Positions 5,270 to 59,690 of a stretch of DNA of 64,000 nt are shown in pieces. A model generated the notes under the pieces. It was not told where the DNA came from and did not search any database. It saw only the letters and a list, made by a program, of their open reading frames with translations. The stretch spans positions 1 through 64,000 of the forward strand of contig JACRPL010000012.1 in the NCBI GenBank assembly GCA_016223245.1, read 5' to 3'. Position 1 is the stretch's first letter. The number at the start of each line of letters is the position of its first letter. This DNA comes from Candidatus Saganbacteria bacterium. GTDB taxonomy: Bacteria > Margulisbacteria > WOR-1 > XYC2-FULL-46-14 > XYC2-FULL-37-10. The position numbers and the translations under genes were made by a program.

Positions 5270-5346
5270 TGGTGGGCCAAGGAGGAATCGAACCTCCGAC
5301 CTTACCCTTATCAGGGGTACGCTCTAGCCATCTGAGCTATTGGCCC
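5270..5346 (-). tRNA. tRNA-Ile (GAT), CCA encoded
   Basis: The complement folds as a tRNA with acceptor GGGCCAA, anticodon GAT in CCTGATAAGG and a genome-encoded CCA (5270-5272). A palindrome ACCCGACGCAACGTCGGGT follows directly at 5251-5269. A broken copy of its 5' end lies just upstream at 5378-5420. Confidence 0.96.
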
Positions 5347-5377: not shown

Positions 5378-5420
5378 CTAGCATCTGAGCCCTGCCTGCC
5401 GGCAGGCAGGTATTGGCCCA
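5378..5420 (-). pseudogene. tRNA-Ile 5' fragment interrupted by a 20-bp palindrome
   Basis: On the minus strand TGGGCCAATA, then the 20-bp family-1 palindrome, then GCTCAGATGCTAG reproduce the first 22 or so nt of the neighbouring intact tRNA-Ile with one base missing. The copy then diverges. It lies 31 bp upstream of the intact gene. Confidence 0.8.
5391..5410. repeat. family-1 20-bp palindrome (copy 2, perfect)
   Basis: CCTGCCTGCCGGCAGGCAGG is a perfect palindrome inserted within the tRNA-Ile fragment, between the acceptor strand and the D-arm. Confidence 0.9.
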
Positions 5421-8014: not shown

Positions 8015-8074
8015 CGAGGAAACCGCGACGCTTGTCCCGATTCCCACATCGGGATTTAGTCGCTGGTTTCCGAG
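8015..8074. repeat. family-3 60-bp palindromic repeat (copy A)
   Basis: The element runs CGAGGAAACCGCGACG...TAGTCGCTGGTTTCCGAG and folds on itself, with an inner TCCCGAT/ATCGGGA stem. It is the same over 60 bp as 14477-14536 and matches an inverted copy at 37466-37525. Confidence 0.9.
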
Positions 8075-14476: not shown

Positions 14477-14536
14477 CGAGGAAACCGCGACGCTTGTCCC
14501 GATTCCCACATCGGGATTTAGTCGCTGGTTTCCGAG
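14477..14536. repeat. family-3 60-bp palindromic repeat (copy B)
   Basis: Same 60 bp as copy A at 8015-8074 in the same orientation. It lies between DUF559 and pabA. Confidence 0.9.
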
Positions 14537-37465: not shown

Positions 37466-37525
37466 TTAGGAAACCAGCGACTAAATCCCGATGTGGGAAT
37501 CGGGACAAGCGTCGCGGGTTCCTAA
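37466..37525. repeat. family-3 palindromic repeat (copy C, inverted)
   Basis: Inverted copy of the 60-bp repeat at 8015 and 14477: GGAAACCAGCGACTAAATCC ... GGGACAAGCGTCGCGGGTTC. Differences are confined to the outer arm. Confidence 0.88.
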
Positions 37526-37560: not shown

Positions 37561-37612
37561 CAAGCCCCGATTTTCTATTTTACAAGAATAGATTATAGAG
37601 AATCGGGGCAAG
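37561..37612. repeat. CAAGCCCCGATT palindrome
   Basis: CAAGCCCCGATTTTCTATT faces AATAGATTATAGAGAATCGG and GGCAAG around a short loop, a variant of the TCCCGA/TCGGGA family upstream of the tRNA. Confidence 0.75.
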
Positions 37613-43805: not shown

Positions 43806-44678
43806 ATGGCCAAATTATCGATCCACGAGTGGTTCAAACAAAAGAAAAAAGCAAGACAAAAAGAACCGGCCGCGCCGGCAGAAAGGTTGAACATCCCGGA
43901 AAACCTTTGGGTAAAATGTTATTCCTGCAACACCGCGATATTCTCGAAAGAGCTCAAAGAGAACCTGAAGGTCTGCCCAAAATGCAATTACCATTTCAGG
44001 CTTTCCGCAAATGAAAGGATCGAAATGCTTGCGGATGCCGGAAGCTTCAAAGAAATAGCGCGGGACCTCAAAGCCGCCGATTTCTTAGGCTTTGTCGATT
44101 CAAAGCCGTACAAATTAAGGATTGAGGAAGCAATGCTTAAGTCGTCATTGAACGAAGCGATGATCGTGGGCGAATCATTGATCGAATCGCTTCCGGCGGC
44201 ATTAGGCGTTATGGACTTTTCTTTTATGGGCGGCAGCATGGGATCGGTTGTCGGCGAAAAGATCACCCGGCTGGTAGAGCTTGGGATTGAGCGCAAATGC
44301 CCGGTCATTGTTTCAACGTCTTCCGGAGGCGCACGCATGCAGGAAGGTATAATATCTCTCATGCAAATGGCAAAAGTTTCTGCCGCGCTCGGGCGTTTAA
44401 GGGAATTTGGCATACCTTATATAGTCCTGCTTACCGACCCGACGACCGGCGGCACAACCGCAAGCTTTGCGATGCTCGGGGATATCCAGATCGCGGAACC
44501 CGGCGCATTGATAGGTTTTGCCGGCCCCCGCGTCATCGAACAGACAATAAGGCAAAAACTGCCTCCGGGCTTCCAGCGGTCGGAGTTCCTTTTGAAGCAC
44601 GGGATGGTTGACATGATATGCGCCCGAAAAAACCTTAAAGAAACTTTGGGTAAAATATTGAGGTTTTTCAAGGATTAA
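43806..44678 (+). CDS. accD: acetyl-CoA carboxylase carboxyltransferase beta subunit
   Basis: A 290-residue subunit with an N-terminal zinc ribbon (CYSC about 38-41, CPKC about 57-60) and the crotonase-like carboxyltransferase fold (SSGGARMQEG, TTGGTTASFA, GFAGPRVIEQT). With AccA it transfers carboxyl from biotin to acetyl-CoA for fatty acid synthesis. The adjacent accD-accA pair is an expected arrangement. Confidence 0.96.
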   Translation: MAKLSIHEWFKQKKKARQKEPAAPAERLNIPENLWVKCYSCNTAIFSKELKENLKVCPKCNYHFRLSANERIEMLADAGSFKEIARDLKAADFLGFVDSKPYKLRIEEAMLKSSLNEAMIVGESLIESLPAALGVMDFSFMGGSMGSVVGEKITRLVELGIERKCPVIVSTSSGGARMQEGIISLMQMAKVSAALGRLREFGIPYIVLLTDPTTGGTTASFAMLGDIQIAEPGALIGFAGPRVIEQTIRQKLPPGFQRSEFLLKHGMVDMICARKNLKETLGKILRFFKD

Positions 44679-44680
44679 CA

Positions 44681-45655
44681 ATGCCTGATAAAACATCTTC
44701 GACAAAATACCTGCTTGAATTCGAAAAGCCCCTCCACGAGCTTTACCGCAAGATCGACGAATTAAAAAAAATGTCCGAAAGCGGAAAGTTCGATATGTCC
44801 GAAGAGATCCGTATGATAAATCGACGCATCGATTCGATGCGGCAGGATATTTTCTCGAATTTGTCAGCTTACCAAATAGTACAGATCGCACGGCATATCA
44901 TGCGCCCGACCACATTAGATTATGCCGACCTGATCTTTAATGATTTTCTGGAGCTTCACGGCGACAGGAATTACGGCGACGACCTGGCAATGGTGTGTGG
45001 GATCGCAAAATTAGACGGCCAATCAGTAATTGTTGTCGGGCACCAAAAGGGCCATACTACAAAAGAACTTATTTCCCGCAATTTCGGCATGGCTCATCCT
45101 GAAGGGTACCGTAAAGCGTTAAGGGTTATGCGTCTGGCGAACCGCCTGCAAAAGCCCATAATAAGCTTTATCGACACACCCGGGGCATATCCCGGGATCG
45201 GCGCCGAAGAAAGAGGACAATCCGAAGCGATAGCAAAGAACTTAAGAGAAATGGCCGGACTGAATGTCCCGTTCATCAGTGTTATAACTGGCGAAGGCGG
45301 GAGCGGAGGCGCCCTCGGTATTGGAATGGGGAACCGCGTTTTGATGCTTGAGCACGCAGTATACTCTGTCATTTCGCCCGAAGGCTGCGCGTCGATACTT
45401 TTCCGCGACGCGGCGCGAGCGCCTATCGCCGCCGAAGCTTCAAAGATCACCGCGAAAAACCTGTTGGAATTTGATATAATAGATGAGATAATAAAAGAAC
45501 CGATAGGCGGCGCGCACAACGACTATAAACGCGCAGCCGGCAATATAAAAGCCGCAATTCTTAAGAATTTACAAGAACTTCTCAGGCTTTCACCGCGTGA
45601 ATTGATCGCGGATCGTTATAACAAATTCCGAAAAATGGGAATATTTGTCGAATAA
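44681..45655 (+). CDS. accA: acetyl-CoA carboxylase carboxyltransferase alpha subunit
   Basis: A 324-residue subunit. The N-terminal coiled-coil region (about 5-55) precedes the carboxyltransferase fold with HGDR, FIDTPGAYPGIGAEERGQSEAIA and GEGGSGGALGI. Length and motifs are normal. It starts two bases after accD and is the last gene before a tRNA-Leu cluster. Confidence 0.96.
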   Translation: MPDKTSSTKYLLEFEKPLHELYRKIDELKKMSESGKFDMSEEIRMINRRIDSMRQDIFSNLSAYQIVQIARHIMRPTTLDYADLIFNDFLELHGDRNYGDDLAMVCGIAKLDGQSVIVVGHQKGHTTKELISRNFGMAHPEGYRKALRVMRLANRLQKPIISFIDTPGAYPGIGAEERGQSEAIAKNLREMAGLNVPFISVITGEGGSGGALGIGMGNRVLMLEHAVYSVISPEGCASILFRDAARAPIAAEASKITAKNLLEFDIIDEIIKEPIGGAHNDYKRAAGNIKAAILKNLQELLRLSPRELIADRYNKFRKMGIFVE

Positions 45656-45676
45656 AGGCTAACCCAAATCAAGAAT

Positions 45677-45726
45677 GCCGCTGTGGTGGAATTGGCCCCG
45701 ACGTAAAGTCGGGGCAAGCAGACTGC
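45677..45726 (+). pseudogene. tRNA-Leu 5' part, D-loop interrupted by a palindrome
   Basis: GCCGCTGTGGTGGAATTGG is the 5' acceptor strand and D-arm of a tRNA-Leu. Then comes CCCCGACGTAAAGTCGGGG (a palindrome) and CAAG, then CAGACTGC, the expected D-arm continuation. The complete tRNA-Leu(CAA) begins directly after. Its acceptor GCCGCTG pairs perfectly with CAGCGGC at 45858-45864. Confidence 0.8.
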
Positions 45727-45811
45727 GCCGACGTGGTGGAATTGGTATACGCGTCCGCCTCAAAAGCGGATGAGATAACATCTCATGCCGGTTCGACTCC
45801 GGCCGTCGGCA
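45727..45811 (+). tRNA. tRNA-Leu (CAA)
   Basis: An 85-nt tRNA with acceptor GCCGACG/CGTCGGC, anticodon loop CTCAAAA (anticodon CAA), long variable arm TGAGATAACATCTCA and A73. It sits exactly between the two halves of another tRNA-Leu. Confidence 0.96.
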
Positions 45812-45865
45812 TGTCGGTTCGCTTGTCCCGATCGCGAAGCGCATCGGGAACCCCGACCAGCGGCA
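45812..45865 (+). pseudogene. tRNA-Leu 3' part, T-loop interrupted by a palindrome
   Basis: TGTCGGTTCG, then CTTGTCCCGATCGCGAAGCG and CATCGGG (palindrome), then AACCCCGACCAGCGGCA. GTCGG/CCGAC is a T-stem and CAGCGGC + A is a 3' acceptor strand that pairs 7 of 7 with GCCGCTG at 45677. This is the other half of the split tRNA-Leu. Confidence 0.78.
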
Positions 45866-45892
45866 TAAAATACAGGCCCATAAAATACAGGC
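45863..45892. repeat. tandem ATAAAATACAGGCC
   Basis: ATAAAATACAGGCC occurs twice in a row (one extra C between) immediately before tRNA-Leu(CAG). Confidence 0.8.
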
Positions 45893-45972
45893 CGCGGTGG
45901 TGGAATTGGCATACACGTACGATTCAGGTTCGTATGGGAAAACCCATGGGAGTTCAACTCTCCCCCGCGGCA
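45891..45972 (+). tRNA. tRNA-Leu (CAG)
   Basis: An 82-nt tRNA with acceptor GCCGCGG/CCGCGGC, anticodon loop TTCAGGT (anticodon CAG) and long variable arm TGGGAAAACCCA. Very similar to the tRNA at 48486. Confidence 0.95.
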
Positions 45973-46003
45973 TGATTGAAAATGATCAATAAGGAGGAAA
46001 ATA

Positions 46004-47251
46004 ATGGACATCGTTGAATTGGAAGGGAAAACTCTGCAAGACCTTTACGAGGTGGCAAAAAAACTTGAGATCCAAGGTTTCAGGCAGCTTAAGAAACATG
46101 ATCTGATATTCAAGATATTGGAATTCCAAACACAGAAGAACGGGAACGAATTCGTGCCAAAAGGCATTTTGGAGATCTTGCCTGAAGGCTACGGGTTTTT
46201 AAGGACCGGCGGATATTTGCCGTCGCGCGAAGATATCTATGTGTCGCAAACCCAGATCAGGCGTTTTGACATGCAGAACGGCGACCTGGTTTCAGGACAG
46301 GTCCGCCCGCCAAAAGACGGCGAAAAATATTACAGTTTGCTTAAGATCGAAGCGATAAACAGCCTGAACCCTGAACAGGCAAGGGACAGGATACCTTTTG
46401 AGAATTTAACGCCAATCTTTCCTGAAGAAAGATACACTTTGGAATATTTGGGCTGTCCTATTGCTTCCAGATTGATAGACCTCTTATCGCCTATCGGCAA
46501 AGGCCAGCGGGCAATGATCGTTTCTCCCCCTAAAGCCGGTAAAACAACAATTCTAAAGAATATCGCAAATAGTATAACTGCCAATCATCCTGACACGGTG
46601 ATCAAAGTATTGCTTGTCGATGAAAGGCCTGAAGAAGTAACCGATATGGAAAGATCGATCAAAGGCGAAGTTATCGCGTCAACTTTCGATGAACCGCCAG
46701 AGGAACACATAAAAATAGCCGAATTATGCCTTGAATCCGCCAAGAGACAGGTTGAAGCCGGCAAGAATGTCCTCATCCTATTGGATTCAATAACCCGTTT
46801 AGGAAGGGCATATAACCTTGTAACCCCGCCATCAGGACGCACGCTTTCAGGCGGTCTCGACCCAACAAGCCTTCACCGCCCAAAAAGATTTTTCGGAGCC
46901 GCCAGAAATATTGAAAATGGCGGAAGCTTAACTATCGTTGCTACTGCTCTTGTTGAAACAGGAAGCCGCATGGACGATGTCATTTATGAAGAATTCAAGG
47001 GAACAGGGAATATGGAATTGCACCTAAACCGGAAGCTTGCAGAAAGAAGGATCTTTCCTGCGATCGATATCAAGCTTTCTGGGACAAGGCGCGAGGAATT
47101 GCTCCTATCCGAACAAGAGATCAAAAAAGTTTGGCTGTTAAGAAAGGTCATGTCAGACTATGAGCCCACAGAAGCCACGGAACAATTGATCGAGAGATTA
47201 AAAGAATTCAAATCGAACAAGGCATTCTTAGAATCCGCTGATAAGGGCTGA
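46004..47251 (+). CDS. rho: transcription termination factor Rho
   Basis: A 415-residue hexameric RNA helicase. The N-terminal helical and OB-fold RNA-binding domain (about 1-125, with GYGFLR) is followed by the ATPase with Walker [23 protein letters not shown], and the Q/R loops ([15 protein letters not shown]). A Shine-Dalgarno AAGGAGG precedes ATG 46004. There is no long insertion in the N-terminal domain. Its stop shares a base with the murF start. Its presence fits the scarcity of intrinsic terminators here. Confidence 0.97.
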
Positions 47252-48480
47252 TGCTTACCAGGGATGAAATCGAAAAAATCGCTTGCGGCAAAATATTGCC
47301 CGAGGACAAGCCCTTTAGATCAAACGACATATCGATCGATACCCGCACGATCGAGCCAAATGATCTTTTCATCCCTATTAAAGGAGAAAATTTCGACGGA
47401 CGAACCTTCATTAAAGATGCGCTAAAAAAGGGAGCATTTGCCATGGACGTAAAAAATGGCCTGGAAGCTCTCCAAAATTTGGCGGCATACCACAGGGCCA
47501 AGTTCAAAATACCTGTTATTGGAGTCACAGGCAGCGTCGGAAAAACAACCACAAAAGATATGCTGGCATCGATACTATCGCAAAAAATGCCGACCCTAAA
47601 AAACGAAGAAAACTTCAACAATGAAGTTGGGGTTCCCCTCACCCTGCTTAAGCTTACAAAAAAACACAAAGCCGCAGTAATTGAAATGGGAATGCAAGGT
47701 TTGGGCGAAATAGATCTTCTTGCAAAAATTGCAAAGCCGACGATCGCGATAATTACGAACATTGGCGAAGCGCATATGAAATATTTAAAGACAAAGAAAA
47801 ATATCGCCCGCGCAAAATCGGAAGTTTTTAATTATTTAAAGAAAAAAGATTTCGCAATCATAAACCAGGACGACGAATACTTCGAACACTTAATGTCAAA
47901 TGTCAAATATCAAATGTCAAATGTTCGGACATTTGGGATCTTGGAAAAATCCGATGTGACTCCAAAAGATCTTGAGGGGATAAAACTTCCAGTTCCTGGC
48001 GAGCATAATATTTATAACGCTCTAGCCGCGATCGCAGTAGCCAAAATATTAAAAATAGACAAGAAAGCGATCAAACGCGGGCTTGAGATATTCACCCCTT
48101 CAAGCAAAAGGATGGAAGTTTTCAACTGCAGAAACAAAACAAAAATAATAAACGACACTTATAATGCAAATCCGCAATCAATGGCCGCAGCTTTGAGGGT
48201 TTTAGCATCGATCCCCGGCAGGAAAATAGCCATATTAGGCGATATGCTGGAGCTTGGCCGCAAATCTAGGAATTACCACAAAAAGGTCATAAAACTCGCG
48301 CAAAAACTTAAGATCGACAAGCTGTTCCTGCTGGGAAAAGAGTGGCCCCAAAAATCTTTCGGCAATAAGAAGGAATTGATAAAAAAATTAAAGACAATTC
48401 TTAAGCCTTCTGATATAATTCTCATCAAAGGTTCGCGCGGAATGCGCATGGAAGAAATTGTATCCCGGATCGTAAATTGA
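47251..48480 (+). CDS. murF: UDP-MurNAc-tripeptide D-Ala-D-Ala ligase
   Basis: A 409-residue Mur ligase. It has the N-terminal domain, ATP loop [14 protein letters not shown] (about 89), the [10 protein letters not shown] and NIGEAH motifs, and a C-terminal domain with [10 protein letters not shown]. It adds D-Ala-D-Ala to the muropeptide precursor. The segment [17 protein letters not shown] near 216-232 is encoded by CAAATGTCAAAT words (47890-47930), an in-frame insert. A tRNA-Leu follows after 5 bp. Confidence 0.95.
47890..47930. repeat. CAAATGTCAAATA array inside murF
   Basis: TAATGTCAAATGTCAAATAT and CAAATGTCAAATGTT words in frame in murF, the same words as the intergenic arrays at 15498 and 41381. 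Confidence 0.8.
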
Positions 48481-48485
48481 AGCAT

Positions 48486-48567
48486 GCCGCGGTGGTGGAA
48501 CTGGCATACACGTACGTTTAAGGTGCGTATGGGGAAACCCATGGGAGTTCAACTCTCCCCCGCGGCA
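48486..48567 (+). tRNA. tRNA-Leu (AAG)
   Basis: An 82-nt tRNA with acceptor GCCGCGG/CCGCGGC, anticodon stem TACGT/GCGTA and loop TTAAGGT, giving anticodon AAG. It differs from tRNA-Leu(CAG) at 45891 by a few bases around the anticodon stem, D-loop and variable arm. A34 is rare in bacterial tRNA-Leu. Confidence 0.9.
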
Positions 48568-48611
48568 AGATTTTAAGTTGCCGTTACGATAGGATAACCG
48601 GAGGATATAAA

Positions 48612-59478: not shown

Positions 59479-59551
59479 AGCGGGAGACGGGGTTCGAACC
59501 CGCGACCTTCTGCTTGGGAAGCAGAAGCTCTACCAACTGAGCTACTCCCGC
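59479..59551 (-). tRNA. tRNA-Gly (CCC)
   Basis: The complement has acceptor GCGGGAG/CTCCCGC, anticodon loop TTCCCAA (CCC) and U73. A broken copy of its 5' end lies just upstream at 59576-59690. Confidence 0.95.
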
Positions 59552-59575: not shown

Positions 59576-59690
59576 AGCTCTACCAATCCCGATGTTCCGC
59601 CAAAGGCGGAAATCGGGATCCCGACCACATCTAATAGTAAACATTTTCAATATCAGCTCATCTTTGTGCGTCGGGACTGAGCTACTCCCG
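59576..59690 (-). pseudogene. tRNA-Gly 5' fragment split by a 90-bp element
   Basis: The complement reads CGGGAGTAGCTCAG, then a 90-bp insert (59587-59676), then TTGGTAGAGCT, which together match nt 2-26 of the intact tRNA-Gly. The insert has ends TCCCGA and TCGGGA and an inner hairpin (TCCCGATGTTCCGCC/GGCGGAAATCGGGA). The copy diverges after the D-arm. The sequence CTTTTTGATGA before the intact tRNA also follows the tRNA-Ile fragment. Confidence 0.8.
59587..59676. repeat. 90-bp TCCCGA...TCGGGA element in a tRNA fragment
   Basis: Terminal inverted TCCCGA/TCGGGA and an inner palindrome with a CCGCCAAAGGCGG stem. Related to the family-3 palindromes. Confidence 0.72.

Follow-up and report, generated by a model that had tools for sequence, protein, structure and literature searches.

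The window analysed here, that is the whole stretch of 64,000 nucleotides, belongs to G000, a Margulisiibacteriota (WOR-1-like) MAG. Between accA and an intact tRNA-Leu(CAG) gene lies an outer tRNA-Leu which is interrupted three times, by a hairpin in its D-loop, by a complete tRNA and by a second hairpin in its T-loop. The features of the locus are:

44681-45655, plus strand: accA, the conserved upstream neighbour and synteny anchor
45677-45695, plus strand: acceptor 5' strand and D-arm of the outer tRNA-Leu(CAA) up to the insert, GCCGCTGTGGTGGAATTGG, the same as in the intact Leu(CAA) gene of relatives, e.g. G005 and G021
45696-45718, minus strand: hairpin insert in the outer D-loop, CCCCGACGTAAAGTCGGGGCAAG, 23 nt, a CTTG-hairpin on the minus strand; all 23 nt are identical in G018
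45719-45726, plus strand: 3' side of the outer D-arm, CAGACTGC, with one T more than in G018
45727-45811, plus strand: inner complete tRNA-Leu(CAA), found by ARAGORN, by Rfam RF00005 and in the whole-genome tRNA list
45812-45821, plus strand: 5' side of the outer T-stem and beginning of the T-loop, TGTCGGTTCG, by reading of the sequence
45822-45849, plus strand: hairpin insert in the outer T-loop, CTTGTCCCGATCGCGAAGCGCATCGGGA, 28 nt, CTTG followed by TCCCGAT..ATCGGGA, at most 1 nt from the class-wide double-hairpin site
45850-45865, plus strand: end of the outer T-loop, 3' side of the T-stem, acceptor 3' strand and discriminator, ACCCCGACCAGCGGCA
45891-45972, plus strand: tRNA-Leu(CAG), the intact syntenic neighbour, found by ARAGORN and Rfam and by synteny in relatives

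The inner tRNA-Leu(CAA) is complete in cloverleaf and anticodon according to both ARAGORN and Rfam (tRNA match of 55.6 bits), takes the exact place of the anticodon and variable arms of the outer gene, and is the sole Leu(CAA) found in the G000 assembly (whole-genome list of 36 tRNA hits). It adjoins the outer arms directly, and the ends of the hairpin elements are absent at these junctions. The outer gene is left without uninterrupted D, anticodon and T arms; its acceptor strands, GCCGCTG and CAGCGGC, form a perfect pairing of 7 bp, which is retained in the predicted RNA fold (z -4.85, with much of the stability contributed by the inner tRNA). As the outer halves are ordered 5' then 3', this is not a permuted tRNA arrangement.

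The D-loop and T-loop hairpins are one kind of element in opposite orientation, each consisting of CTTG followed by YCCCGA..TCGGGR, and a tRNA-Ala relic of G010 also has a hairpin of the D-loop type in its own D-loop. Neither sequence was matched in 100 shuffles of the window, and palindromes of the form CCCGA..TCGGG number 78 in the G000 genome against 13 for a reversed control pattern; the hairpin sequences at this locus are therefore not due to chance. Viral contigs scanned for the junctions of the D-loop and T-loop inserts held no real relative.

The closest named relatives of accA come from Margulisiibacteriota, Saganbacteria and WOR-1 MAGs. In most relatives an intact tRNA-Leu(CAA) lies between accA and tRNA-Leu(CAG), and it usually shares its acceptor and T-stem with the outer halves (G003, G005, G007, G021 and others). 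When the two hairpins are taken out of a nest found in G018, the outer halves are the same as the G005 gene bar one T/C difference, whilst those of G000 treated in the same way differ from it by a few further small changes. The match between the relatives' intact gene and the outer halves identifies the outer part as the old tRNA-Leu(CAA) of the accA/Leu(CAG) locus. Comparison with the relatives also shows that both hairpins excise cleanly and that the boundaries of the inserts are clean. G018 belongs to another family of the same class, and its nest is arranged identically at the corresponding locus, with 82% identity. The preliminary description had proposed, from the window by itself, a tRNA-Leu split around a complete tRNA-Leu(CAA) with a palindrome in each half, and had suggested a relic of nested insertion. 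Every element of that layout is in place, and both the intact ancestor in relatives, which was its own test, and the clean excision of the hairpins favour its relic reading. Its other suggestion, an expressed tRNA-in-tRNA precursor, is a possibility.

A double-hairpin repeat, traced from relics in G013 and G011, has a length of 73-94 bp and contains TCCCGA..TCGGGA twice, with TCCCGAcggaCATTAttataaaaTaATaATgGAAtcgTCGGGA as the consensus unit. The search pattern itself fixed the ends TCCCG/CGGGA; at the sixth stem pair, which the pattern left free, A-T, T-A and C-G all occur. Among 55 distinct copies the empty site matches a tRNA in 41, spread over 13 isotypes, and these sites are concentrated in the T-loop between C56 and 57 (GTTC^RA, 30 copies, nine of them assigned by reading the GTTC^ flank), with nine in the D-arm and two in the anticodon arm. 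The pattern for the T-loop site was found in 14 of the 31 genomes of the class, in none of 43 genomes from other classes of the phylum and not at all in a reversed control. Of the 28 elements in a D- or T-loop with a complete cognate tRNA nearby, 24 have it on the anticodon side, and removal of the plain elements restored a tRNA recognised by ARAGORN at just 3 of 53 loci. Two adjacent hairpins, dispersed copies and clean empty sites are the marks of a double-hairpin mobile element, and all three are present here. Since the TCCCGA/TCGGGA ends are equal and the site is within one base, the T-loop insert of the window probably belongs to the same broad kind. The CTTG tag precedes single hairpins in G000 and other genomes, and none was seen on the TCCCGA doublets. 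The double hairpins without a tRNA site come mostly from G025 or from a small number of other genomes; the G025 doublets, which have equal ends and occur on several contigs, are for the most part not located in tRNA genes, overlap in part with other palindromes, and are possibly a subfamily with another target.

A Y1/RAYT transposase was considered as the driver of the hairpin family. The corresponding domain, PF01797, is present in 21 of the 31 class genomes including G000, but its presence does not consistently follow that of the doublets, as both G016 and G021 carry doublets and have no match (G016 has nine doublets and no Y1-transposase match). No transposase could be linked to the hairpin elements in the class genomes.

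Nesting is not unique to the window and recurs in the class. G022 has an independent Leu(CAA) nest, in which the outer gene, once the D-loop palindrome and the inner tRNA are subtracted, is the intact G021 gene. Further nests involve Arg(TCG) in G022, Val(TAC) in G000, Gly(TCC) and Val(CAC) in G010, Met in G018, Val(GAC) in G020, and Ser(CGA) and Lys(CTT) in G015. The best-preserved cases are the Met nest of G018 and the Val nest of G020, in which the outer 5' half is followed by a first hairpin, by a second hairpin whose loop holds a complete cognate tRNA, and by the outer 3' half, the last with another double hairpin in its T-loop; when elements and cargo are removed, both outer genes are tRNAs which ARAGORN finds complete. 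Val(TAC) in G000 follows a similar plan, the arms ACCCCGATGG and CCATCGGGG flanking a complete tRNA. In several nests the inner and outer tRNA sequences differ. The survey covered 296 tRNA genes together with their flanks; 11 of them lie between a cognate 5' piece on the upstream side and a cognate 3' piece on the downstream side, whereas none has the inverse order at an equal threshold; some of the surveyed loci were picked for carrying elements, such that these rates are not genome-wide frequencies, and Leu-TAA is a weak case among the 11. On account of this order, simple tandem duplication was rejected as the origin of outer and inner copies. Relic pieces within 300 bp of tRNAs are on the same strand in 46 cases and on the opposite strand in seven. 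Most relics retain one half, and nesting is proven for only about a dozen loci. Pattern matches in G009, G034, G049 and G021:C51 look, on reading, like protein-coding or low-complexity sequence and not like tRNA, and a duplicated downstream flank as the source of the spacer between complete tRNA and relic was not seen in the sequences read.

Two further relics occur in the window, each next to a complete tRNA of its own kind:

59577-59690, minus strand: tRNA-Gly relic around a double-hairpin element
59587-59676, minus strand: the double-hairpin element itself, in the D-loop of the 5' relic, CGGGAGTAGCTCAG^..^TTGGTAGAGC
59479-59551, minus strand: complete tRNA-Gly(CCC) just downstream of the relic, found by ARAGORN
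5378-5420, minus strand: tRNA-Ile 5' relic with the palindrome CCTGCCTGCCGGCAGGCAGG between TGGGCCAATA and GCTCAGATG
5270-5346: complete tRNA-Ile(GAT) after the relic, found by ARAGORN

Taken together, the Leu locus is probably a broken original tRNA-Leu(CAA) with its replacement inside, produced through hairpin elements which target tRNA loops, and with the cognate inner copy as the functional gene. Short hairpin-forming elements with a preference for the loops of tRNA genes would have entered the D-loop and T-loop of the original gene, and a complete second tRNA-Leu(CAA) would have replaced its anticodon and variable arms and taken over its function. Release of the inner tRNA from the transcript would fall to RNase P and the 3' processing enzymes, with the outer halves remaining as by-products. 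We infer the order of these events, the working role of the inner tRNA and the mobility of the elements, the last from empty sites in relatives and from dispersed copies. The recurrence across the class would reflect the same process, in which hairpins break tRNA loops and a cognate copy lodged inside takes over. This inner copy may have been the cargo of an element, or it may have been acquired later and kept for rescuing the cell. As the inner tRNA at the Leu locus adjoins the outer arms without element ends, the cargo reading would apply there only by analogy with the Met nest of G018 and the Val nest of G020. More generally, and tentatively, these could be gene-free double-hairpin mobile elements which insert in tRNA loops and carry a working copy of the broken tRNA in the loop of the second hairpin, each insertion thus supplying its own rescue and driving the turnover of essential tRNA genes; we regard this stronger form as a possibility with the balance against it.

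One feature of the Leu nest sits less comfortably with the outer halves being by-products. Outside the hairpin loop, G000 and G018 differ by two substitutions in the outer halves, by 14 of 85 positions in the inner tRNA and by 24 in the neighbouring tRNA-Leu(CAG), the outer halves being less diverged than the inner tRNA (Fisher p=0.001, two genomes compared); the flanks of the nest have also diverged, and AccA of G018 is 75% identical to that of G000, no closer than the AccA of other relatives. Lower divergence of the outer halves than of the inner tRNA is not what a neutral relic predicts. Retained function could account for it: the outer halves might persist because they work as RNA, forming a scaffold of tRNA shape in which the hairpins replace the D- and T-loop contacts and which perhaps guides the processing or stability of the inner tRNA. 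The replacement of exactly the anticodon and variable arms would suit such a scaffold, as would the outer acceptor stem of the predicted fold, to which the inner tRNA also contributes. However, the pattern comes from two genomes, one of which (G000) has the extra T in the D-arm, most relatives manage without a nest, and elsewhere the outer parts have lost a half or are interrupted at differing points. Gene exchange of the whole unit, followed by replacement of the inner tRNA, could give the same pattern, and we consider a working scaffold unlikely.

A broken gene with its replacement inside has also to be weighed against splicing, in which the hairpin elements would be introns cut out of the transcript, with the outer tRNA functional too. 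The Met gene of G018 and the Val gene of G020, which are perfect after removal of the elements, are what this would produce, but such restoration is confined to the few loci given above, most outer genes lack a half or its pairing, and Rfam covariance models run over 44500-47500 of the Leu region matched no intron family. We know of no splicing machinery for such sites in bacteria, and find this explanation very improbable. An artefact of assembly or binning is harder still to credit. G000 is a metagenome assembly, the other genomes are likewise assemblies without reads, and repeats lie near contig ends; against this, the Leu nest is common to two families at 82% identity, and relics and nests occur in many separate assemblies, with relics also in the single-contig G011. 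Slightly less probable than the scaffold, though well ahead of introns or artefact, is an origin of the relics as scars which ordinary integrative islands left at tRNA attachment sites, the hairpins having landed later in dead fragments. Many 3' relics do begin near the anticodon, just behind a complete tRNA, and islands are known to cross over in the anticodon loop and in the T-loop (PMC4383910, PMC9897764). Yet there is no island or integrase between gene and fragment, the two being directly adjoining or separated by 4-65 bp in most cases; the relic pieces flank the complete tRNA on both sides and in order; and 5' relics are frequent here, whereas islands left 5' fragments in 159 of 3919 cases (PMC4383910).

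The comparison with islands extends to their mechanism. They cross over at the anticodon loop or T-loop and restore the gene (PMC4383910), leaving tRNA fragments behind (PMC9897764), and the targets, as well as a complete tRNA with a displaced cognate fragment, are also found here. Unlike the present inserts, which are gene-free hairpins of 20-95 bp, islands span kilobases, encode an integrase and restore the gene through a part which they carry; D-loops are also targeted here, and the broken gene encloses the complete tRNA. Archaea and algae have tRNA genes which are split, permuted or intron-bearing. In these, too, the gene is in pieces, but in the present case the 5' half precedes the 3' half as usual and a complete cognate tRNA forms the insert. 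Among repeats, the nearest kinds are REP-type palindromes and mitochondrial double-hairpin elements, and to our knowledge no nested cognate tRNA is associated with the latter. REPs and REPINs are likewise short palindromes dispersed singly or as doublets, and their conserved end tetranucleotide may correspond to the CTTG on the single hairpins here (PMC3733652, PMC3116915), but REPs are known as repeats between genes, whereas the present family is mostly in tRNA gene loops and has no consistent link to a Y1 transposase. The mitochondrial double-hairpin or repetitive hairpin elements resemble it as mobile-looking double hairpins which invade genomes, but they have another sequence and have been described mainly from intergenic regions and from protein or rRNA genes (PMC2800124). 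Searches of the open-licence literature turned up neither a complete tRNA lying within its cognate nor hairpin repeats with tRNA loops as their target. The statement in the preliminary description that no described case was known to it thus holds for that literature; the locus is nevertheless not an isolated one, as its architecture recurs across the class together with a hairpin family targeting tRNA loops.

Essential and conserved tRNA genes appear here to have been broken repeatedly at one loop position by short hairpins, with what is probably the working copy inside, and the nests offer a concrete route for tRNA gene replacement. The hairpin sites define a putative insertion activity specific to tRNA loops, and if it is true that the elements carry a rescue tRNA, they would amount to genetic parasites of a new, self-compensating form. 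In practical terms, annotation of this Margulisiibacteriota class will list the relics and miss the nests.

Several minor observations were made on palindromes and tRNAs. A composite palindrome, GGAAACCGCGACG-CTTGTCCCGATTCCCACATCGGGA-TTTAGTCGCTGGTTTCC, in which a CTTG-hairpin sits within the loop of a larger palindrome, is dispersed in G000 (8031-8054, 14493-14516 and 37486-37509 of the window and about 25 further places), with related forms in G019 and G028. Upstream of a tRNA-Met, at 37567-37612, is the palindrome CCCCGATT..AATCGGGG with CAAG on either side. In G010 (L322, L331, L231) complete Gly(GCC), Met, Ala(TGC) and Gly(TCC) tRNAs are flanked by inverted repeats, perfect over 13-14 bp in three of the four, beside or inside cognate relics. 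Long inverted repeats around all inner tRNAs were considered and rejected as a general feature, although a few tRNAs of G010 have them (Gly-GCC z -6.4, Met z -3.8). The same genome (L322, L329, L337) has one repeat family in the T-arms of Gly and Lys relics, GATTTTTGTTTGCACATTAATTC.., and another in the anticodon stems of Val and Gly relics, ..TTGCGTCTTG..AAAGACACAAA... The 36 tRNA hits of G000, a genome rated 100% complete, lack several expected species, e.g. His, and the assembly or the search is therefore incomplete. Finally, the tRNA-Leu at 48485-48568 of the window is predicted with the anticodon AAG in place of the usual bacterial GAG; AAG is also found in G001 and G002, and GAG in G015 and G006.
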